Positions 10,221 through 49,662 of a DNA stretch of 64,000 nucleotides are shown piece by piece. The DNA comes from Hyphococcus sp. GTDB lineage: Bacteria; Pseudomonadota; Alphaproteobacteria; Caulobacterales; Parvularculaceae. The stretch's first letter is position 1, and the number at the start of each line of letters is the position of its first letter. Both the position numbers and the translations under genes were made by a program. The notes beneath the pieces were generated by a model. The model had not been told where the DNA came from and searched no databases. It saw nothing but the letters and a program-made list of their open reading frames with translations. The DNA lies in assembly GCA_021776335.1 (NCBI GenBank), contig JAJFGB010000009.1, positions 186,001-250,000 on the forward strand, in the 5' to 3' direction.

Positions 10221-10297
10221 GCAAAAAACGCCTAGAACCCCCGTCACCACTGGCCTGCCGCAATAGCTCAGCTGGTAGAGCACCTGATTTGTAATCA
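10221..10297 (+). other. attL, left attachment repeat
   Basis: 77-bp copy of the att repeat, identical to 49551-49627 except at 10241 (C versus G). It starts inside the tRNA promoter, runs through the tRNA 5' half and ends in the anticodon 3' stem. Integrase (10310) begins 13 bp beyond it, the usual int-att arrangement. Confidence 0.85.
10257..10297 (+). pseudogene. tRNA-Thr 5'-half remnant at attL
   Basis: Bases 10257-10297 equal the first 41 nt of the complete tRNA at 49587, including the acceptor 5' strand, D arm and anticodon loop. After 10297 the sequence becomes phage DNA, so T arm and acceptor 3' strand are absent. The promoter-like TTGCGC (10209-10214), 18 bp, TAGAAC (10233-10238) is still present and points into the integrase gene on its antisense strand. 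Confidence 0.8.
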
Positions 10298-10309
10298 TAC
10301 GATCCATAT

Positions 10310-11488
10310 TCATTGCGCTTTCTTTTCATTGAGGTTTTCGCCGTCGTCGTCGTTAGTACGGGACTTTTTACGGGGTTTGCTGCATCGGCTGGCCTGCTCC
10401 ATGGCGGCAGCAACATCATCCAATTCAACATGCGCATAGCGCACCGTCGATGCGATCGAACGGTGTCCAAGCGCGCGCTGCACCGTCTTGAGATTTGATC
10501 GGTCGGCATTGCGGAGCAGATTGGTTGCAAAGTGATGCCGCCAATCGTGCCATTTGAGATCAGTGACGCCGGCTTTCTCACGTGCCTTGTCCCATGCCTG
10601 ACGCACGCCAGCGCCCGTCATGGGCCGCCTGGCGCCTTTATCGCGCCCGCGCTGAGCCTCATAGGTAAATACTTGCGTGGGATCCAGACCGCGTTGGCGG
10701 CGGAGGATCTCGATGCCGGCGCTCGGTATCGGCACCGTGTGCCAGCGTCCGCCCTGAAGGCTCGACTTGATGCGGATCCGCGCGACGCATCTTTCAAAAT
10801 CGATCTGCGGCCATGTGAGGTACACGACATTGGCCTTACGCATACCGACAAGCGCCGCAAATTCCATGATATCGAGATAATCAGGCCGTATGGCGTTAGC
10901 CAGCGCTGTGTATTCGTCGTCTGACAATTCGCGGGCGCGCTCATCGGCTTCGGGCAGGCGCAGTTTGCCAAATTTCGGCGCCTTGATAGCGTCCTCAAGG
11001 TGCCACGCGTCGCGCGCATGATTAACCAGGCGCGAGAAGCAATCGATCACTGACCGATTGACCGTGGCATTTGACACCAGCTTCTTTTTGAATTTGCCAT
11101 ATGTGTCAGCCCGCCGTCGCGCCACCAGCTCTGAAAGCTTTTTTGCTGCTGTGCCATTGGCTGCGTCGGCAAGCGACGTTCCCGGCCCAAAGAACTCAAC
11201 CAGGCGCTCGAGGTTTCTGTCGGTGTCATCACCGTCTGTCAAGAACTTTGCGTTTTCTTCGTAAAAGCGCGCCGCTGCGACATTCATTGTGATATCGCCG
11301 TCGACCCGCCGCGACGCATTGCGGCGCTTGGCGTCACCTCTCAGTGTGCGGAGGACCGCTGCGGCTTCGCGCTCATTCTTTTTCTTCGTTGATCCAGAAA
11401 ATCGAACACCTCCGCACTGGAAGTCGTATTGCCAGAACGGCGACCGCGTGACTCTGAAGAGGCCTTTGGTTTTGGAAGAACTTGGCAT
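10310..11488 (-). CDS. int: Phage tyrosine integrase
   Basis: Site-specific recombinase that inserts and excises the prophage at tRNA-Thr. All catalytic residues are visible: Arg217 (VGMRKANV), His314-x-x-Arg317 (WHDWRH), His342 (LGHRS) and the nucleophile Tyr351 (TVRYAHV). The N-terminal ~55 residues form the arm-binding part and residues ~70-170 the SAM-like core-binding domain. It is the last gene of the leftward operon; the upstream excisionase-like gene overlaps its 5' end by about 150 bp in another frame. The GGGACTTTTT motif near its 3' end matches sequences near attR. Confidence 0.95.
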   Translation of the reverse strand: MPSSSKTKGLFRVTRSPFWQYDFQCGGVRFSGSTKKKNEREAAAVLRTLRGDAKRRNASRRVDGDITMNVAAARFYEENAKFLTDGDDTDRNLERLVEFFGPGTSLADAANGTAAKKLSELVARRRADTYGKFKKKLVSNATVNRSVIDCFSRLVNHARDAWHLEDAIKAPKFGKLRLPEADERARELSDDEYTALANAIRPDYLDIMEFAALVGMRKANVVYLTWPQIDFERCVARIRIKSSLQGGRWHTVPIPSAGIEILRRQRGLDPTQVFTYEAQRGRDKGARRPMTGAGVRQAWDKAREKAGVTDLKWHDWRHHFATNLLRNADRSNLKTVQRALGHRSIASTVRYAHVELDDVAAAMEQASRCSKPRKKSRTNDDDGENLNEKKAQ

Positions 11489-11691
11489 GGCGTCGCCTTT
11501 ATCTTGTCGATATAGATCCGGATATCTGCTTCAGCGTATCGCCGTGAGCGCTTGCCGATCAAGCAGTACCGAATGCGCCCGCAATCTCCCTCTTTCTTCA
11601 ACGTCTTAACATCAATAGGGATCAGATCCGCCGTCGCCTGATGGCTGATCAATGCCGAATCGGCGAAGGCTTTGGAGATCGCGTCGGTCAT
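11341..11691 (-). CDS. Excisionase-like small DNA-binding protein
   Basis: Starts at ATG 11691, overlapping the upstream stop as ATGA. The first ~65 residues have a MerR/Xis-type winged-helix look (SHQATADLIPIDVKTLKKEG, then RYCLIGKRSRRYAEADI with a YAE-D-I helix), as in AlpA or excisionase proteins. The C-terminal half lies over the integrase 5' end and is basic without clear structure. Position just before int supports a recombination-directionality role. Function is inferred from context and fold resemblance only. Confidence 0.6.
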   Translation of the reverse strand: MTDAISKAFADSALISHQATADLIPIDVKTLKKEGDCGRIRYCLIGKRSRRYAEADIRIYIDKIKATPCQVLPKPKASSESRGRRSGNTTSSAEVFDFLDQRRKRMSAKPQRSSAH

Positions 11692-11990
11692 GGGCCGCAG
11701 CTCGAGCACAGATCAGGTTCAACCCAATGGCATCCTTCGCCCATGAGCCCTTCGCAGCCCTGAAAAAAATTGCAATTGCATTTGCGACAGGTGCGCAGCA
11801 CGTAGCGTTTGTTGCTGCGATCATATGTGATCGCCTCGGGAAAGTTTGCCTTCAACAATGCGAAATCGGCGGCTGCAGTTTGCAGCGACACGCCGAATTT
11901 TTTTGCCACATGTGACCGGTTGAGCGATCCAAAGATGACAAATGATTCTACCATCCAGCTTTGGCGGCGGTCTTGAAACCAGTCGGTCAT
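11688..11990 (-). CDS. Small HTH plus zinc-ribbon phage protein
   Basis: 100 aa, coupled at both ends by ATGA overlaps. Residues ~15-55 look like a winged-helix DNA-binding unit (VIFGSLNRSHVAKKFGVSLQ then AAADFALLKANFPEAITYD). The C-terminus has paired cysteines, CRKC-x-C...GC and CSSC, suggesting metal binding. Member of the leftward early operon. No specific family recognised. Confidence 0.6.
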   Translation of the reverse strand: MTDWFQDRRQSWMVESFVIFGSLNRSHVAKKFGVSLQTAAADFALLKANFPEAITYDRSNKRYVLRTCRKCNCNFFQGCEGLMGEGCHWVEPDLCSSCGP

Positions 11991-12190
11991 TTCTTGATCT
12001 TCAACGGTCGAAAACCATCAGGGTACGGATACTGTGACGGTAGTAGCGATGTAATGACCGCATTTTTTCCGAGCTGAGCGCCGGCGCTGATGCCGCGATC
12101 GGACCAGAATTTGTTGATCGAGTTTACGTGCTGCCTGGCATTGTCCGCATCATCAGGTTTGCTGGCCGGCATATAGGCGTCAATCTCCAT
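11987..12190 (-). CDS. Small hypothetical phage protein (67 aa)
   Basis: Sits in the leftward operon, 3 bp after the upstream stop and overlapping the next start by 4 bp. Soluble and mixed in composition, with a central FWSDRGISAGAQLGKN stretch. It carries no motif I can name. Operon packing is the main reason to call it real. Confidence 0.5.
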   Translation of the reverse strand: MEIDAYMPASKPDDADNARQHVNSINKFWSDRGISAGAQLGKNAVITSLLPSQYPYPDGFRPLKIKK

Positions 12191-12193
12191 GGT

Positions 12194-12514
12194 TCAGACC
12201 CTTATTGTTTGATCGCGTCCGAATTGCTGTTCGACACGGGCGCTTTGTTTTCGCGCGGCGAATAGTTTTGAAAAATGCGCAACGGATCCTCGCAATGCCT
12301 TGGCCCGCTGTTCCCGCCATGCGCAATTGCCGCAAATGTCGAAACAGGCGCCGCCTTGCGTGCGCTGCTCTGCGCCGTGACAAGCAGCAAAGCGCGCGCG
12401 AGCCTTGCTCACATCATCATCAATGCGGCGTGGCTCGATATGTTCGATGTCGCAATCAGCTGCGTCACAGCTCATCAAATAGACGTCGTCCTCTCGAAGG
12501 AGTTCGATGCTCAT
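12194..12514 (-). CDS. Cysteine-containing hypothetical phage protein (106 aa)
   Basis: Start ATG overlaps the stop of the preceding gene (ATGA). Cysteines at CDAADC, ACHG, ACFDICGNC may bind metal (CxxxC and CxxC spacing). The N-terminus is acidic and the C-terminal half basic. Another open frame in the same interval (12180-12383) is Arg-rich and looks like a shadow. Role unknown. Confidence 0.5.
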   Translation of the reverse strand: MSIELLREDDVYLMSCDAADCDIEHIEPRRIDDDVSKARARFAACHGAEQRTQGGACFDICGNCAWREQRAKALRGSVAHFSKLFAARKQSARVEQQFGRDQTIRV

Positions 12515-12726
12515 GAAGCGCCCAACCTTTCCGCTGTGCGTTTCGACATCCAGAAGCGAGTGCGGCCAAAAATCACCATGAACGTGTCGCCGCGCGAATT
12601 CGGTACGGCTTCAAAGGGGCCAAACAGGGCGGCGCCGGGAAAGCCTGCTTCTCCGGACCCGACCGTCACGCCGGCGTTCTGCCCGGCGGCTGGTCTGTCG
12701 GGTTGTGGGGATCGGCAAATGGGCAT
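12511..12726 (-). CDS. First gene of the leftward early operon, hypothetical (71 aa)
   Basis: ATG 12726 is preceded by AGAGGAG at good spacing, which favours it over the longer frame from 12849, whose extra part is Pro/Arg-rich. The product starts MPICRSPQPD, has a Gly-rich middle, and ends with a strand-rich FMVIFGRTRFW segment. About 97 bp upstream lies a phage operator identical in design to those at the cI/cro switch, so repressor probably controls this transcript. Confidence 0.5.
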   Translation of the reverse strand: MPICRSPQPDRPAAGQNAGVTVGSGEAGFPGAALFGPFEAVPNSRGDTFMVIFGRTRFWMSKRTAERLGAS

Positions 12727-12822
12727 GGCGGCGGCTCCTCTGTTCAAAGGCGGGCGCGGCGGCTTTACCCTGGAGGGGAGAGATGGGGGCCGCCGCGCCG
12801 TCCCTGTGCTTGAGGAGCCATA

Positions 12823-12841
12823 GGTAGCCGGAAAGGTTACT
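12823..12841. promoter_or_regulatory. Phage operator copy 3 (leftward operon)
   Basis: GGTAGCC, 5 bp, GGTTACT. Same half-sites and the same 5-bp gap as the two operators between the repressor and cro-like genes. A further inverted pair, GGTTACTTT (12835-12843) and AAAGTAACC (12853-12861), overlaps it. Placed upstream of the leftward operon, it would let the prophage repressor silence int and xis. Confidence 0.65.
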
Positions 12842-12866
12842 TTAATCAAGAAAAAGTAACCAAAAA

Positions 12867-12882
12867 TGTTTCACGTGGAACA
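12867..12882. promoter_or_regulatory. parS: parS-like centromere site
   Basis: TGTTTCACGTGGAACA. It matches the conserved bacterial parS consensus TGTTYCACGTGRAACA at every position and is a near-perfect palindrome (established consensus for ParB-binding sites). It lies between divergent genes inside the prophage. No parA or parB gene is seen in the window, so host ParB would be the reader. No other CACGTG in the window has the matching flanks. Confidence 0.75.
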
Positions 12883-12993
12883 ATCGTCAGATAAAGTCAG
12901 TTAATTGCTGGCCATGCGTTATACTGTTAGTGCTCTGTGGCATTACTGAAACCGTGCGATCTGGCGATAGCAATTGGGCGCGAGGAACGTGAT

Positions 12994-13386
12994 ATGGACG
13001 GATTTCTGATTTTTCTATTGTTCGCGTTGTATTTCACGCCCGCGATCACGGCGATCATCCGCAACCATCACGAGGTTGGCGCCATTTTTCTGCTGAACCT
13101 GCTGCTTGGCTGGACGGTAATCGGCTGGGTCGGCGCGGCCGTCTGGTCAGTGATGGCGGTCAAGAAAAAGTCGAAGGCGGTCAATGGATCTCGACAACGG
13201 TCGCCTGTTGAAGAGCTCGAGGCGATCAACGCTTTGCGCAAGCAGGGCGCCATCGATGAGGCCGAATTCTTGATGCTGAAAGCAAATGCTATGGCCGCTG
13301 CCAACGACACGATCGCTGCCGCGACTGAGCGCGAGGAAACCGAGCAAGGGACTGGTAGCGGCGCGAGGCCCTCTACGGCTTCCTAA
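12994..13386 (+). CDS. Superinfection-immunity family membrane protein with SHOCT tail
   Basis: 130 aa from ATG 12994, chosen because AGGA lies 7 bases before it. Two membrane helices flank a short loop: FLLFALYFTPAITAIIRN, then IFLLNLLLGWTVIGWVGA, the signature of the phage T4 Imm-like superinfection immunity family. The C-terminus has a SHOCT motif (PVEELEAINALRKQGAIDEAE). In the family, such proteins block entry of related phage DNA; here that is inference. It is transcribed opposite to the early leftward operon and may be expressed in the lysogen. Confidence 0.85.
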   Translation: MDGFLIFLLFALYFTPAITAIIRNHHEVGAIFLLNLLLGWTVIGWVGAAVWSVMAVKKKSKAVNGSRQRSPVEELEAINALRKQGAIDEAEFLMLKANAMAAANDTIAAATEREETEQGTGSGARPSTAS

Positions 13387-13429
13387 GCTCAACTTTCCGA
13401 TCAGCAGAAATCAAACGCCATCGCATCGA

Positions 13430-13975
13430 CTAAGCGTCTTTGCGTGCCGGTGCTTTGACTTTGACAGCTTCATTTGTTTCGGCGTCGTCCAGTTCAGGAA
13501 ATGCGCGCGCCATGAAGAAACGACGATAGGCGATTAACAGGCTTTCGTCGGTATCCTGATGAAATTCAACGCGGTGTCGTTTTGGTGGTCTGATTCCATG
13601 CCATATGCGGCTGTAAGTGGCAGGGAAATTGAGCCTTAGGATGCGCAGTCCGGAGACGATGTTTACTGAAACAAGGATGATGATGAATATGGAATTTATG
13701 CCCAGGATGAGCCATTCGGCGATAAATGTCGGTGTGCCGAACACTGTAACGTGCAGGCGGTACATCGCTTGGATGAAAAGTAAAAACACGACCCAAAGAA
13801 AGATTGGTCGCCCAGGATATTGAGGGCGTGTCGCCGTTCTCAACAAGAAATAGACAATAATGCCGTCAACCAGCGTCAGCGCGCCGGGTAGTGCGACGCC
13901 GGTGTAAAATTTTACGAGCCACAGCGCGATCGTCACGCTCCACATGAGGGCAATCAACGAGGCTAGAAACAACAT
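13430..13975 (-). CDS. Polytopic membrane protein, cargo gene
   Basis: 181 aa with about four hydrophobic helices (LFLASLIALMWSVTIALW, GALTLVDGIIVYFLL, FLWVVFLLFIQAMY, LGINSIFIIILVSVNIVSGL), then a basic and acidic cytoplasmic tail. The frame stays open and hydrophobic for ~22 codons before ATG 13975, so a non-ATG start nearer 14040 is possible. It follows the exported small protein gene on the same strand. No known family recognised; its place in the prophage suggests lysogenic conversion. Confidence 0.6.
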   Translation of the reverse strand: MLFLASLIALMWSVTIALWLVKFYTGVALPGALTLVDGIIVYFLLRTATRPQYPGRPIFLWVVFLLFIQAMYRLHVTVFGTPTFIAEWLILGINSIFIIILVSVNIVSGLRILRLNFPATYSRIWHGIRPPKRHRVEFHQDTDESLLIAYRRFFMARAFPELDDAETNEAVKVKAPARKDA

Positions 13976-14046
13976 TCCCTTGGCGCGCGAAAGGTGCGCC
14001 AGCGCAACCGTAAGGGCGACGCCAGCGCCATAAGATAGAATGGTTA

Positions 14047-14358
14047 TTAAAGCCCCAGCGCTAATTTCACCATCTCCGCGACATTGTCTTTAGGCCCTCC
14101 GCCCTCCGCCAATAGGCGGCCCCCGACAGCTCCAGCCTTCGCCTCAAGTAAAGAATGCAACTCGGAAGCCTTTTCTGCAACCATCAACTGCGCATTAGTT
14201 AAGTCTGCCAACGCTGCACTTGCTGCGCCATCAAGCGTCTCATCCGCATGAGCGGCGGCTGTGACGCCGATTGTTCCAAGAACTGTTGCTGCCGCCAGGG
14301 TTGCTTTTTCGAACTTTAGCAAGGCGATTTGTGGCCTACGTAGGTCTGGTGTGGACAT
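14047..14358 (-). CDS. Small exported or membrane-anchored protein (103 aa)
   Basis: A hydrophobic segment (TLAAATVLGTIGVTAAAHA) after ~20 N-terminal residues ends in AHA-DE, a plausible signal peptidase site. The remainder is Ala/Leu-rich and helical, with a Gly-rich turn. GGGAG precedes the ATG at good spacing. A 30-nt hairpin and a perfect CtrA-type box lie upstream, so expression may follow the host cell cycle. Not part of any known phage core module; unknown function. Confidence 0.6.
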   Translation of the reverse strand: MSTPDLRRPQIALLKFEKATLAAATVLGTIGVTAAAHADETLDGAASAALADLTNAQLMVAEKASELHSLLEAKAGAVGGRLLAEGGGPKDNVAEMVKLALGL

Positions 14359-14372
14359 TATGTGTCTCCCAT

Positions 14373-14402
14373 AAGGCGAACCGCTAAGTCGGTTTTCGCC
14401 TT
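14373..14402 (-). promoter_or_regulatory. Hairpin in the 5' leader of the exported small protein gene
   Basis: AAGGCGAA (14373-14380) pairs with TTCGCCTT (14395-14402), and inner CCG with CGG. The stem is about 11 bp with a 6-nt loop. It lies between the likely promoter and the ribosome site of the gene starting at 14358, so it may affect mRNA stability or translation. Confidence 0.5.
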
Positions 14403-14423
14403 AATGGGGTGGGCCGATTTACG

Positions 14424-14439
14424 TTAAGTTTTTATTAAC
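14424..14439. promoter_or_regulatory. CtrA-type binding box
   Basis: TTAA, GTTTTTA, TTAAC: an exact fit to the full CtrA consensus TTAA-N7-TTAAC known from Alphaproteobacteria. It lies 66-81 bp upstream of the leftward gene at 14358 and 61-76 bp upstream of the rightward frame at 14500, so either could be its target. Confidence 0.55.
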
Positions 14440-14499
14440 CATAGGTCTTGCGCGCCTGATAGAGGTGCCGTTATCTAGTGAACCACAAATAAAAAAGGG

Positions 14500-14763
14500 G
14501 TGAAGTTGGGGGATTCCAAGCATAGGCGGCTATCCAGGGCCTTTTGGGAAAAGCTCCGAAAGGTGGTCGGCCCGCATGAGAAAGTCACCCAGATTTACGA
14601 CGCCCATTGGCGGCGGGCGACGATTGCGGAGCATTCGTCAACAGAACCGCTACCCCTTCCGCCGATTTCCGCAGCTGAGGATAAGACGGATTCTGACCAG
14701 CGGGATTGGCGCCAAGAACTGCACCGAGAGATAACAAAATCCATTGAGTCAGATGACTGGTGA
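14500..14763 (+). CDS. Hypothetical protein (87 aa), antisense-overlapping the repressor 3' end
   Basis: A GTG at 14500 or TTG at 14506 could start it; AAGGGG fits the TTG better. The sequence is soluble and charged, with a basic start (KHRRLSRAFWEKLRKVV) and an acidic end, and reads like a normal protein. It overlaps the last ~180 bp of the repressor frame on the other strand. One of the two 3' ends may therefore not be real coding sequence. No family recognised. Confidence 0.4.
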   Translation: MKLGDSKHRRLSRAFWEKLRKVVGPHEKVTQIYDAHWRRATIAEHSSTEPLPLPPISAAEDKTDSDQRDWRQELHREITKSIESDDW

Positions 14764-15223
14764 CGCTGACTTCAGGCTCGAATTTTTGTTCCTGCTCAAT
14801 GAAATTCTGACAATCACGAGCGTCATCAATAAAAAAGTTGTCGTCTAGATTCTCGATTTTCTGCGCGCCGGCGTGATCGATGAAAAACGGCCGCACAAAT
14901 GCTTCGTAGCGCGTTGCAGAGATGATCGTCGATAAACCGCTGTGCGCCGGACCTTCCTGCAATTCCGCCTGGCGGGCATCAGTTCTCGATCCGTCAAAAA
15001 CCAGAAAGTCCTCATCGACAAGTTCGTTAGTTTTGCAGTTGCCGAGGGCGGCGGACAGTTGCGCGGCGGTTTTTGGCATAATCCTGAGGCGCCCCGTTTC
15101 CATCTTGTATATCGCCTGCTTCGTCACTTTAGGATCGAGCAGGTCGCCGAGCGCTTCCTGTGTGAGCTTTGCTTTTTTTCGGGCAGCCCTAAGGCGCGCG
15201 CCATTTTTGCTAGGTGATTCCAT
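14585..15223 (-). CDS. CI-like prophage repressor (XRE family)
   Basis: The N-terminal ~65 residues form an XRE helix-turn-helix (RLRAARKKAKLTQEALGDLL...TKQAIYKMETGR...AAQLSAALG). The rest is mixed and acidic, without the Ser-Lys LexA protease motif, so induction is unlikely to be by simple RecA self-cleavage. I use ATG 15223: the in-frame ATG at 15253 would place the operator inside coding sequence. It is divergent from the cro-like gene with two operators between them. The last ~55 residues look less protein-like and overlap an antisense frame. Confidence 0.75.
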   Translation of the reverse strand: MESPSKNGARLRAARKKAKLTQEALGDLLDPKVTKQAIYKMETGRLRIMPKTAAQLSAALGNCKTNELVDEDFLVFDGSRTDARQAELQEGPAHSGLSTIISATRYEAFVRPFFIDHAGAQKIENLDDNFFIDDARDCQNFIEQEQKFEPEVSVTSHLTQWILLSLGAVLGANPAGQNPSYPQLRKSAEGVAVLLTNAPQSSPAANGRRKSG

Positions 15224-15232
15224 CACAAAAAG

Positions 15233-15251
15233 GGTAGCCGTACCGGTTACC
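15233..15251. promoter_or_regulatory. Phage operator copy 1 (repressor side)
   Basis: GGTAGCC, GTACC, GGTTACC. Imperfect palindrome with 5-bp centre, 10 bp upstream of the chosen repressor start. Likely used for autoregulation of the repressor gene. Confidence 0.7.
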
Positions 15252-15280
15252 ATGTAAAATCTCGAATTTGGTTGACCAAA

Positions 15281-15299
15281 AGTAGCCAATCAGGCTACC
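15281..15299. promoter_or_regulatory. Phage operator copy 2 (cro side)
   Basis: AGTAGCC, AATCA, GGCTACC. Perfect inner palindrome GTAGCC/GGCTAC with the same 5-bp gap as the other two copies. It ends 8 bp before the cro-like ATG. A good -35 (TTGACC) just upstream would place the transcription start close to the ATG, so the mRNA may be leaderless. Confidence 0.7.
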
Positions 15300-15307
15300 G
15301 CCAAAAA

Positions 15308-15571
15308 ATGAATTTGGGAAACTACCTCCAGCGGGAACGCCTCTCGAACGCAAAATTCGCCGAAATCATTCGGGTTTCTGGCAAAATGACCATTTATCGA
15401 TACCGAAACGGCGCCGTACCCGGCCCAACAAACATGCAGAAAATTATCGACGCGACCAACGGCGAAGTGACCGCGAATGATTGGTTCGTGATCCCGGCGC
15501 CTGAGGGCGTGTCCGCGGCTGAAGGCGACCGGCGGCAGTCCCACTCGAAAACTGAAAGGAAAACGGCATGA
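15308..15571 (+). CDS. Cro-like regulator
   Basis: 87 aa with a helix-turn-helix (YLQRERLSNAKFAEIIRV...MTIYRYRNGAVPGPTNMQKI) followed by the short strand region DATNGEVTANDWFVIP, typical of Cro/YdaS-type phage proteins. The ATG at 15308 sits right after operator 2. It is the first gene of the rightward early operon and overlaps the next gene by ATGA. Confidence 0.8.
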   Translation: MNLGNYLQRERLSNAKFAEIIRVSGKMTIYRYRNGAVPGPTNMQKIIDATNGEVTANDWFVIPAPEGVSAAEGDRRQSHSKTERKTA

Positions 15572-15879
15572 GCAACACGCCATATGCAAAATTGTTAATG
15601 GACCTTGATGACGGCGAAGTGGAATCCGCGCTGTCAGACAGTCTTGTCGAAAACATTAGGGCGCTGAAAGAATTCGGCGGCAATGCGCATCTGAAGCTGA
15701 CGCTCAAGATGGAGCTCAACGAGTTTGGGCGCATTGAGTTCGAGCCCAAAGTGGAAGCCAAGCGCCCAGGCAAAGCGCTCAACAAATCACAATTCGTCAC
15801 CGGCCCAGACGATCAGCTCGAACTGTTCCGCACGGCATCAAATGACGCTGCAACGCCGTCTGGCGTAACGATCAACTAG
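15568..15879 (+). CDS. Early phage protein of unknown function (103 aa)
   Basis: Coupled to the cro-like gene by ATGA. Acidic N-terminal half (LLMDLDDGEVESALSDSL) and a strand-rich centre (LKLTLKMELNEFGRIEFEPKV). Similar small proteins of this layout occur in alphaproteobacterial phage early operons, but I know of no function. Confidence 0.6.
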   Translation: MSNTPYAKLLMDLDDGEVESALSDSLVENIRALKEFGGNAHLKLTLKMELNEFGRIEFEPKVEAKRPGKALNKSQFVTGPDDQLELFRTASNDAATPSGVTIN

Positions 15880-15889
15880 GAGCTGAAGT

Positions 15890-16231
15890 TTGACCGACAC
15901 GCAAGAGCCAGCCGCCCGCGAAACCGCGTTTTACAATTGGGCGGAACTGCACCGGCTCATCGACATGGTTGATCAGATCACTGAATTCTCTGCAGGCTCT
16001 GCTGTCGTGCTGGGTAAGGGCGGCAACAAACGCATCGTTACGTTTGAAGAACTCGGCCTGAGCGCGCGCGAGGCCGCCGCGTGCTTTATCTCTGTCTGGC
16101 GCCGGGCGCTCCACGATCAGGAATTGGAAGTGCTGACAGGCTTGCGCGATGCGCACGGCGCGACAGCCGAAGATTTCAGAGACGCGCTTGTTCAATATGA
16201 TCTGTCGATAGCTGAAAGGCCGGTGGCATGA
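15890..16231 (+). CDS. Early phage protein of unknown function (113 aa)
   Basis: TTG start at 15890 supported by AGGAG seven bases upstream. The product is soluble and largely helical, with a conserved-looking centre (KRIVTFEELGLSAREAAACF). It overlaps the next gene by ATGA. No domain recognised. Confidence 0.55.
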   Translation: MTDTQEPAARETAFYNWAELHRLIDMVDQITEFSAGSAVVLGKGGNKRIVTFEELGLSAREAAACFISVWRRALHDQELEVLTGLRDAHGATAEDFRDALVQYDLSIAERPVA

Positions 16232-16551
16232 GCGCGTATCATCGTCAAGCGAGCGCCCGCGATATGCAACATCGGGTGGCGTTGTTGAAGTCGAAAGTCG
16301 GGTTCGACGATGCGGTTGTGGCGCTTGGCATGGAAGGCGATGCAGGACCGGAATGCCCATCTTGTGGCGCGCTTGACGCGCTAAAGCCATGCCACAAAGG
16401 CAATGGATATTTCTGTGAGGTGTGCGCCGAAACAGGCGACGTGATCACGCTTGTGCGCGCGCGGCGCGATTGCGGCCATCTGAAGGCCGTCGAGTTTCTT
16501 GAGCGGGAATGTCTGAGCTGCAAAGACAGCCGCACGCTGGAGCTGTTTTAA
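16228..16551 (+). CDS. CHC2-type zinc-finger protein, primase-like
   Basis: 107 aa. The core CPSCG...CHKGNGYFCEVCAETGDVITLVR matches the zinc-binding domain of DnaG-type primases, down to the GDVI-L element. The polymerase (TOPRIM) part is absent, so it is either a stand-alone priming factor or a replication accessory protein. The helical tail ends with VEFLEREC. It stands next to the initiator-like gene, consistent with a role in phage DNA replication. Confidence 0.75.
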   Translation: MSAYHRQASARDMQHRVALLKSKVGFDDAVVALGMEGDAGPECPSCGALDALKPCHKGNGYFCEVCAETGDVITLVRARRDCGHLKAVEFLERECLSCKDSRTLELF

Positions 16552-16874
16552 TGACCTTTGCGGGCGAGGGGCGCATGCAGGAAGATCCGATCGAAGAATG
16601 GTCGCCGCGCACGCAACGTTTATTGCAATTTCTCGAGTTCGCGTTCTTGGCAGTGGCCTATGCGGGCGCGGCGCATTTCGCGATTTGGGCGGCGGCAGAT
16701 CGCTATGTTGTCGCCACAATCGCCATCATCGTCGCTTTGCTGGCGGGCAATTTTCGCGATGCGTTGCGCGATGTGCGGTTGGATAATTGCGGCATCTCCA
16801 TACAGCTCCGGCGCAAATCATTTGTAGACGGATTTACGGCTGGTAAGCGCGATCGCGCCAGGCCGGCGGAATGA
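16551..16874 (+). CDS. Small membrane protein in the replication operon
   Basis: 107 aa from the ATG of a TAATG stop-start overlap. Two hydrophobic helices (FLEFAFLAVAYAGAAHFAIW and YVVATIAIIVALLAGNF) are followed by a basic tail. Unknown function; it could tether phage replication to the membrane, but nothing in the sequence proves it. Confidence 0.55.
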   Translation: MTFAGEGRMQEDPIEEWSPRTQRLLQFLEFAFLAVAYAGAAHFAIWAAADRYVVATIAIIVALLAGNFRDALRDVRLDNCGISIQLRRKSFVDGFTAGKRDRARPAE

Positions 16875-16936
16875 GCGATCCCTGGCGGCGCAAAGAGGTG
16901 ATCGGCCCTTTCGGCGGCGGTGGAGGCCGAACATGA
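16871..16936 (+). CDS. Putative 21-aa peptide, translationally coupled
   Basis: The frame MSDPWRRKEVIG..., ending in a Gly run, starts in an ATGA overlap with the upstream gene and ends in an ATGA overlap with the downstream one. Such double coupling suggests it is translated, at least as a linker between two genes. Too short to classify. Confidence 0.3.
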   Translation: MSDPWRRKEVIGPFGGGGGRT

Positions 16937-21003: not shown

Positions 21004-21287
21004 GCGATGGTTACGACCTAAAGCACGCAGGCGCAAGACTCGACTTCCCAATTCAGTGGTCAGCCGAGCTTGCGCAGGGAGAAACGATCTCGACGGTTTC
21101 GACGACGGTGGATCCTGTCGAGAATGGCGGCGTTACCGTCAAGAGCGGCACGGATACATTCTCCGGTACACTCGCAAGCCCTGTCCTCGAGGGAGGCATT
21201 GCCGGCCGGCGCTATGTGATCAAGCAGGTCATCAGCACGAACCAAGGCCGCACGGACATACAAGAGCGAACGGTCCTGGTGAATTAG
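21000..21287 (+). CDS. Phage fibre/tail adaptor-like small protein (95 aa)
   Basis: GTG start overlapping the upstream stop. The pattern DFPIQWSAELAQGETISTVSTTV...GG(I/R)YVIKQVISTNQGRTD is that of the small immunoglobulin-like 'fibre-tail adaptor' proteins found in HK97-like and GTA-like clusters. Assignment is by resemblance only. Confidence 0.6.
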   Translation: MSDGYDLKHAGARLDFPIQWSAELAQGETISTVSTTVDPVENGGVTVKSGTDTFSGTLASPVLEGGIAGRRYVIKQVISTNQGRTDIQERTVLVN

Positions 21288-22150
21288 TGGGCCGCTACTA
21301 CGCGCCCGGCGCGTGGCGCGGTTCACATCTGGCAATGCCGCGCGATCTGTCTGTGTCAGTGCGACCTCTAGTGATTGTGTGCGGCGCGCCAGCGAGTGGC
21401 AAGTCGACATGGGCGAGCGAGAACGCAGATGATGTTATAGATCTAGATGTCATCAACCAACAGCTGAGCGGATATCCGTTCCGAGAGACGCCCATAGCAT
21501 TCCTTGCTGCGGCGTTGCAGCAGAGGAACGCGGCGCTGCAGTTGTGCGCAACAGAAGGACCATCCACTGCGTTTATCGTAGGCGCGCCAGAGAGCGGTGA
21601 GCGACAGGCGTGGGCGGACATGCTGAGCCCGCAGCGGGTTGTCGTTCTCAATCCCGGTCAACGGACGTGTCGTGCGCGATTGTTGGCAGACAAAACAAGA
21701 GCGACAATAAGGCGACGACAGATAACAGCGCTTGATCGTTGGTATCAACTGTACACGCCTGCACCATGCGATGAGGTCATAGGCGACGGCGATAGCGGCA
21801 ACCCGCATCGACGGCTCTATAACTCAACGCGCTGGCGGAAAATGCGAGCGGCACACCTCAAGACGGAACCCATCTGTCGCTACTGCAAAGCGAGGGGGTT
21901 CGTTAACGACGGCACGAGAACGGCCACCGGCGCGCAGCAGACGATCGGCCGCCGGCGTTCGCTGATTGCCGATCACATTGAGCAACACCATGGAGATCCG
22001 GAGAAGTTCTGGAACGGTGAACTGCAAACACTGTGTGCTGATCACCACGACATCGCGAAACAAGGCGAAGAGCACAGAGGGTATTCGACGCAGATCGGTG
22101 ACGACGGTTGGCCGGTTGATTCTCGCCACCCTGCTGGAGCCAAAGGTTAA
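21287..22150 (+). CDS. P-loop kinase-like/HNH endonuclease fusion
   Basis: GTG 21287 overlaps the preceding TAG. The N-terminal ~145 residues hold a Walker A motif (VIVCGAPASGKST) and an Asp strand (VIDLDVINQQLSG), as in AAA_33 nucleotide kinases. The C-terminal ~110 residues are an HNH nuclease: RWRKMRAAHLKTEPICRYCK, then ADHIEQHHGDPEKFWN and LQTLCADHHDIAKQ. In cos phages a terminase-adjacent HNH protein aids genome cutting during packaging. The joined P-loop domain is the unusual part, and its substrate is unknown. Confidence 0.8.
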   Translation: MGRYYAPGAWRGSHLAMPRDLSVSVRPLVIVCGAPASGKSTWASENADDVIDLDVINQQLSGYPFRETPIAFLAAALQQRNAALQLCATEGPSTAFIVGAPESGERQAWADMLSPQRVVVLNPGQRTCRARLLADKTRATIRRRQITALDRWYQLYTPAPCDEVIGDGDSGNPHRRLYNSTRWRKMRAAHLKTEPICRYCKARGFVNDGTRTATGAQQTIGRRRSLIADHIEQHHGDPEKFWNGELQTLCADHHDIAKQGEEHRGYSTQIGDDGWPVDSRHPAGAKG

Positions 22151-49568: not shown

Positions 49569-49627
49569 CCGCGTCACCACTGGCCTGCCGCAATAGCTCA
49601 GCTGGTAGAGCACCTGATTTGTAATCA
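49551..49627 (+). other. attR, right attachment repeat
   Basis: 77-bp copy matching 10221-10297 except at one base (49571). It ends within the anticodon stem of the intact tRNA. Confidence 0.85.
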
Positions 49628-49662
49628 GGGGGTCGGGAGTTCGAGCCTCTCTTGCGGCACCA
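49587..49662 (+). tRNA. tRNA-Thr(UGU)
   Basis: 76 nt with encoded CCA. Acceptor GCCGCAA/TTGCGGC, D arm GCTC...GAGC, anticodon stem CCTGA/TCAGG around loop TTTGTAA (anticodon TGT), T arm GGGAG TTCGAGC CTCTC. All stems pair, one G-T. The 5' 41 nt repeat at the left prophage end. Confidence 0.97.

Follow-up and report, generated by a model that had tools for sequence, protein, structure and literature searches.

A perfect parS site precedes the integration genes of a prophage

The stretch of DNA analysed here, referred to as the window (64 kb), carries a 39-kb prophage that is integrated in a tRNA-Thr gene. Towards the left end of the prophage, a parS site separates a leftward series of five small ORFs and an integrase gene from a rightward gene for an immunity-type membrane protein, followed by divergent genes for a CI-like repressor and a Cro-like protein (Table 1). 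Since the small ORFs overlap or abut, they probably form one operon with the integrase gene; a PHROGs scan of four of the five small ORFs yielded a best match of only E 0.007. The first leftward start codon, at 12726, has the Shine-Dalgarno-like motif AGAGGAG and lies 140 bp from parS, and parS is positioned 111 bp upstream of the start of the divergent immunity gene. Further prophage genes encode an O-like replication protein, a NusG-like antiterminator, a terminase, a portal protein and a major head protein. At 21056-22150, a protein of 364 aa appears to be a fusion of a terminase small subunit (residues 101-237) and an HNH endonuclease (residues 305-360).

Table 1 Features around the parS site and at the prophage ends (positions in the window)
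Feature	Position	Strand	Description
Left att copy	10242..10297	+	56-bp direct repeat identical to 49572-49627; the 5' part of tRNA-Thr lies within it
Tyrosine integrase	10310..11488	-	last gene of the leftward series; PF00589 (E 2.8e-23), phrog_1 (E 1.8e-46)
Five small leftward ORFs between parS and integrase	11341..12726	-	overlapping or abutting; 11341-11709, 11688-11990, 11987-12190, 12194-12514, 12511-12726
Inverted repeat	12835..12861	.	GGTTACTTT-N9-AAAGTAACC; 5 bp from parS
parS	12867..12882	+	TGTTTCACGTGGAACA
Superinfection-immunity-type membrane protein	12994..13386	+	PF14373 (E 1.5e-16), phrog_1039 (E 3.4e-19)
CI-like HTH repressor	14585..15289	-	phrog_3 (E 1.8e-9), PF01381 (E 1.3e-9)
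Cro-like small protein	15272..15571	+	divergent from the repressor; phrog_35 (E 5e-4); without Pfam match
Right att copy	49572..49627	+	within and just before tRNA-Thr (49587-49662)

The site fits the consensus TGTTYCACGTGRAACA at 16 of 16 positions, as an earlier note on this DNA had stated, and is the only parS match within the window when up to three mismatches are allowed. As shuffled versions of the window sequence gave a mean of 0.71 matches at this loose threshold, we place the weight on the exactness of the match. From the base composition of the window, 4.4e-5 exact matches are expected per window and 0.0029 per genome, which rules out a chance origin. Of 62 family genomes scanned, 54 contain exact parS sites, whereas the reversed pattern used as a control had no exact match in any of them. 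The site does not belong to host DNA beside the prophage, since the left att copy lies 2.6 kb further outward. A profile search of the contig (C10) for ParB_N (PF02195) gave no match; this agrees with the absence of a ParB gene noted previously and speaks against a phage that brings its own ParB. Two other points of the earlier note have to be revised. The surroundings, described there as a prophage cargo region, are better regarded as the head of a leftward run of genes of which the integrase gene is the last, and the inverted repeat beside parS, taken to be a repressor operator, has no copy near the repressor gene, so that such a role is unproven.

The host ParB is predicted to recognise the prophage site

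The whole genome contains four exact parS sites, three at C3:111822-114283 and the prophage one at C10:198867. The three C3 sites fall within 2.5 kb beside parAB. Of the first two, which were read directly, one lies upstream of mnmG and the other inside it (gene names assigned by eye), and the gene for the host ParB is found at C3:115803, just past the third. As the three other exact sites of the genome adjoin parAB, the host's own parS consensus is the same as the prophage site; a differing host consensus would, according to the earlier note, have spoken against its reading.

The host ParB comprises 305 aa and has its best PDB match in 6t1f (E 2.3e-64), a solved ParB that, judging by its residues, is the Caulobacter protein. 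In the alignment, the host protein keeps the parS-contacting residues, among them R173 and G201 (Caulobacter numbering), as they are listed in excerpts of PMC7383237. Because these residues are kept, the host ParB very likely binds the prophage parS, as far as its sequence can tell.

Exact parS sites outside the origin cluster occur in further prophage-like loci

We collected all exact parS sites in 28 genomes of the genus (the second site of G027 was taken from L196) and judged their surroundings by similarity to the host's origin proteins and, for the remainder, by reading the ORFs. One genome (G038) has no exact parS. Twelve loci with exact parS lie outside the origin cluster, five of which are prophage-like: the window, L161 (G019), L172 and L173 (both G021) and L187 (G033), the latter four being assigned by their integrase, repressor, primase or replication genes. 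The repressor-like protein of L172 has no PHROG match itself and is 30% identical to that of L173. If prophages made up 3% of the DNA, which is an assumed figure, five of 12 would correspond to a binomial P of 1.6e-5. Two other loci (G040, G026) adjoin a tRNA-Pro gene at which these genomes have related integrase elements, four are in or beside ordinary genes as judged by eye (G040:C18, G035:C20 and two in G031), and one is a phage-like contig with three parS sites (L183 in G035). In G019, the prophage site is located 1.24 Mb away from the origin cluster in a genome of 3.47 Mb. In G021, the six origin sites (C32:89989-92856) each have one mismatch, at an outermost base, whereas both prophage sites are perfect.

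Several side observations were made along with these loci. The three perfect sites of L183 (G035:C170; positions 4173, 4464 and 4999) fall within 0.85 kb on DNA with a GC content of 0.39 over the 14 kb fetched, and a ParB-like protein encoded there lacks residues equivalent to R173 and G201. The exact sites beside tRNA-Pro (L195, position 5329; L180, position 9001) may belong to either the host or the element. In G001, G004 and G009 (L163, L164, L165, L167-L170), exact parS sites are scattered over ordinary genes. At L126 (G000:C8, 1465-3260), two adjacent ParB_N-domain proteins directly follow a serine-resolvase-like gene, as seen by eye.

parS occupies the same place in otherwise different elements

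The five prophage-like loci of the genus and L309, a locus of G391 from another family, share one relative orientation, with parS separating the integration side from the repressor. The site is found about 0.1-0.3 kb upstream of the first predicted integration-side gene in all six and is followed by an integrase gene in five; no integrase is visible on the 7.4-kb contig of L187. The distance to the first start codon is about 140 bases in the window, 175 in L161, 96 in L172, 220 in L173, 110 in L309 and 120-310 in L187, where it is ambiguous; start codons and operons at all these loci are predictions. The first integration-side gene of L172 is AlpA-like by eye. The opposite flank of parS varies, with a divergent gene in some elements and the stop codon of the repressor gene in L172 and L309. 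In G391 the order is repressor (phrog_4), parS 20 bp after its stop codon, a small HTH protein, integrase (phrog_1) and tRNA-Lys. We call L309 an integrase-repressor element on the basis of these genes. A tRNA gene, which is likely the att site, stands beyond the integrase gene at 2.2-4.1 kb from parS in L161, L172 and L309; in the window, the att repeat is 2.6 kb away. Inverted repeats next to parS, which are possible operators, occur in the window and, upstream of the site, in L187 and L161 (in the latter two seen by eye) and differ from phage to phage.

Apart from this arrangement, the elements have little in common. Their integrases form about three groups: blastp at E 0.001 matches that of the window to none of the rest, and identities are 28% between L161 and L173 and 29% between L172 and L309. 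At the same threshold, blastp also divides the repressors into about three groups, one consisting of that of the window alone, one of L172 and L173, and one of L161, L187 and L309. When the DNA 3 kb to each side was compared, almost nothing beyond parS and a few flanking bases was shared among the six elements; at E 0.01, the shared DNA amounted to 43 bp between the window and L187 and 97 bp between L173 and L187. Owing to the relatedness of some integrases (L161/L173, L172/L309) and of some repressors, the loci cannot be counted as fully independent cases. The recurrence of the same spot in different phages suggests that these phages use the centromere machinery of their host, and the place of parS upstream of the integration genes has likely been under selection.

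No close relative of the prophage itself was found. Phage records gave no DNA match to it, viral contigs no relative of its replication protein, and the named genomes one distant relative of its integrase. The region 11300-16900, compared with the 62 family genomes, matched only its own genome and 25 bp over an origin parS of G043. The same site in related prophages, which the earlier note had suggested looking for, is seen at the equivalent place in four more prophage-like loci of the genus, none of them a close relative.

Most integrase loci examined have no exact parS

Integrases of the L172/L180 type occur in six of 398 genomes of the order. In four of these (G021, G040, G026 and G391) an exact parS lies 0.3 to 4.5 kb from the integrase gene, whereas none was present within the 10.5 kb fetched for G057 and G286. 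In the two tRNA-Pro integrase elements (L180, L195), parS is instead located on the att side. A further 60 integrase regions across the order (566 kb) comprised 41 of 129 A2-type matches (the best 40 and one other, besides L161 and L173), 16 of 16 window-type and three A1-type matches; they contained one exact parS, that of L309. Seven of the 60 regions belong to the same genus and contain none, which indicates that parS is an optional trait of some phages. Among the 53 short loci fetched around integrase matches from the whole order (L199-L251), five had exact parS, all of them already known. Most integrase loci examined thus lack the site. L309 taken alone is a weak case, since parS is often dispersed over ordinary genes in G391: it contains 12 exact sites, and each of the seven dispersed sites viewed (L410-L416) lies in or beside ordinary genes, for example glyS, xseA and valS (names by eye). 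A search of the 28 genus genomes with PF00589 at E 1e-8 yielded 151 matches, XerC/XerD-type proteins included. Among the matches listed, only the integrase of the window is close to an exact parS by eye; the integrases of L161, L172 and L173, which are recognised by phrog_1, are absent from them.

In viral contigs, exact parS was present in at least 120 stretches, compared with 2, 37 and 61 for three control palindromes, the first of which alone would exaggerate the contrast. Several sites occurred in 17 of the 120 listed parS stretches and in 0 of 98 for the two later controls; L034, L087 and 15 others have two to five exact sites each. The host's origin proteins had no match in any of the 120 listed stretches. 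A PF00589 integrase was detected in one of 50 records chosen from the 120 listed, and a ParB_N match in four of another 50 chosen from them, many of the records in both sets being fragments. With one integrase in 50 records and so many fragments, the viral contigs give no confirmation of a link between parS and integrase. An alignment of A1 integrases found no relative in the viral contigs, and one of A2 integrases found a single relative with 100% identity.

Discussion

We propose that the prophage parS would serve as a phage-borne centromere site for the chromosomal ParB of the host. The host ParB would load there as a CTP clamp and slide up to about 2 kb to each side, thereby coating the immunity gene, the DNA in the direction of the repressor, and the xis-int operon, whose first gene starts at a distance of 140 bp. 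According to excerpts of PMC5815017, the spreading of ParB from a single parS site in Caulobacter does not exceed 2 kb; spreading over about 2 kb would cover the small genes upstream of the integrase, the immunity gene and the DNA up to the end of the repressor gene. Since the place of parS is constant at the head of the integration genes, we favour, if tentatively, a main role in which the host ParB controls the module for integration/excision and immunity. In a stronger form of this reading, different temperate phages may have placed a perfect host site in front of xis-int so that ParB, a CTP switch coupled to the cell cycle and to chromosome segregation, would itself act as the gate for integrating and excising. 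The same excerpts describe extra parS cassettes in the mid-arm of the Caulobacter chromosome as costly. The site in G019 would by analogy lie outside the zones that are tolerated in Caulobacter, so that a prophage parS may come at a cost to the host.

One competing explanation would dispense with ParB altogether: parS could be hitchhiking host DNA in a tolerant gap, or a phage regulator could have an operator that coincides with parS in sequence. The gap beside an integrase gene tolerates accessory DNA, in some relatives parS is dispersed over ordinary genes, and some of the repressors are related to each other (L172 with L173; L161 with L187 and L309). Against this, the same 16-mer recurs although the repressors form about three groups unrelated by blastp at E 0.001, host gene flanks were never seen travelling with parS, and G021 has perfect sites in its prophages but one mismatch in each of its six origin sites. 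We therefore consider it improbable that the site has no ParB function.

If ParB does bind, the site may act as a centromere for partition or positioning, with host ParB-ParA holding or distributing the circular phage DNA while it is not yet integrated or once it has been excised. With one perfect parS and no detected ParB, the element resembles SGI1, as outlined in excerpts of PMC10954446; the varying gene layout around the site would fit a function independent of any one promoter, and its proximity to the att repeat in the window (2.6 kb) and to the likely att tRNA genes of L161, L172 and L309 (2.2-4.1 kb) is in line with such a role. Partition alone, however, does not explain why parS keeps its position in front of the integration genes, and a plasmid with two strong parS sites is reported to be lethal in Caulobacter (PMC5815017, excerpts), so that partition appears rather unlikely. 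Alternatively, an ectopic parS could load SMC (condensin) or disturb the cell cycle, altering chromosome folding or division to the benefit of the phage. Excerpts of PMC5815017 mention elongated cells and abnormal MipZ foci upon insertion of a two-site parS cassette in the mid-arm, and recruitment of SMC to an ectopic parS near ter; the 1.24 Mb between prophage site and origin cluster in G019 also fit. A single site, though, may act far less than a two-site cassette, and the place of parS in the phage is again left unexplained, which makes SMC loading or cell-cycle disturbance quite improbable.

Should ParB load at the prophage site, as in the control of integration that we favour, phages would exploit the chromosome's own centromere protein, the lysogeny decision would be linked to chromosome segregation, and some of the parS sites that lie scattered over bacterial genomes would be explained. 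Among the papers listed by full-text searches of an open library, no title or beginning of an abstract described host-type parS in prophages; as preprints and most subscription papers are outside this scope, such absence is no proof of novelty.

An effect of ParB-parS on competence in Streptococcus pneumoniae was reportedly described by Attaiech in 2015. There, a chromosomal parS is reportedly close to the regulated genes, a layout resembling the one here; the genes concerned belong to a host regulon in S. pneumoniae, whereas here they form a phage integration module. Phage-plasmids such as P1 and N15 bring partition proteins of their own and are maintained outside the chromosome. The phage in the window shares with them a centromere-like site, but has no detected ParB and possesses an integrase and att repeats at tRNA-Thr. 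With chromosomal ParABS systems, as described for Caulobacter in excerpts of PMC5815017, it has in common the 16-bp consensus and a cognate ParB in the host; unlike chromosomal parS near oriC, the site is single, lies in a prophage and is located outside the parAB/origin cluster, on contig C10 rather than C3. The closest precedent that we found is SGI1, whose parS copies, according to excerpts of PMC10954446, hijack the ParABS system of IncC plasmids, with binding of the plasmid ParB stabilising the island. Both are integrative elements with a parS that fits the ParB of another replicon and without a detected ParB of their own (PF02195). SGI1, as portrayed in these excerpts, is a mobilizable island that has two copies of the site and depends on the ParB of a helper plasmid, whereas the elements described here are temperate phages in which one copy, upstream of the integration genes, is predicted to engage the ParB of the host chromosome.
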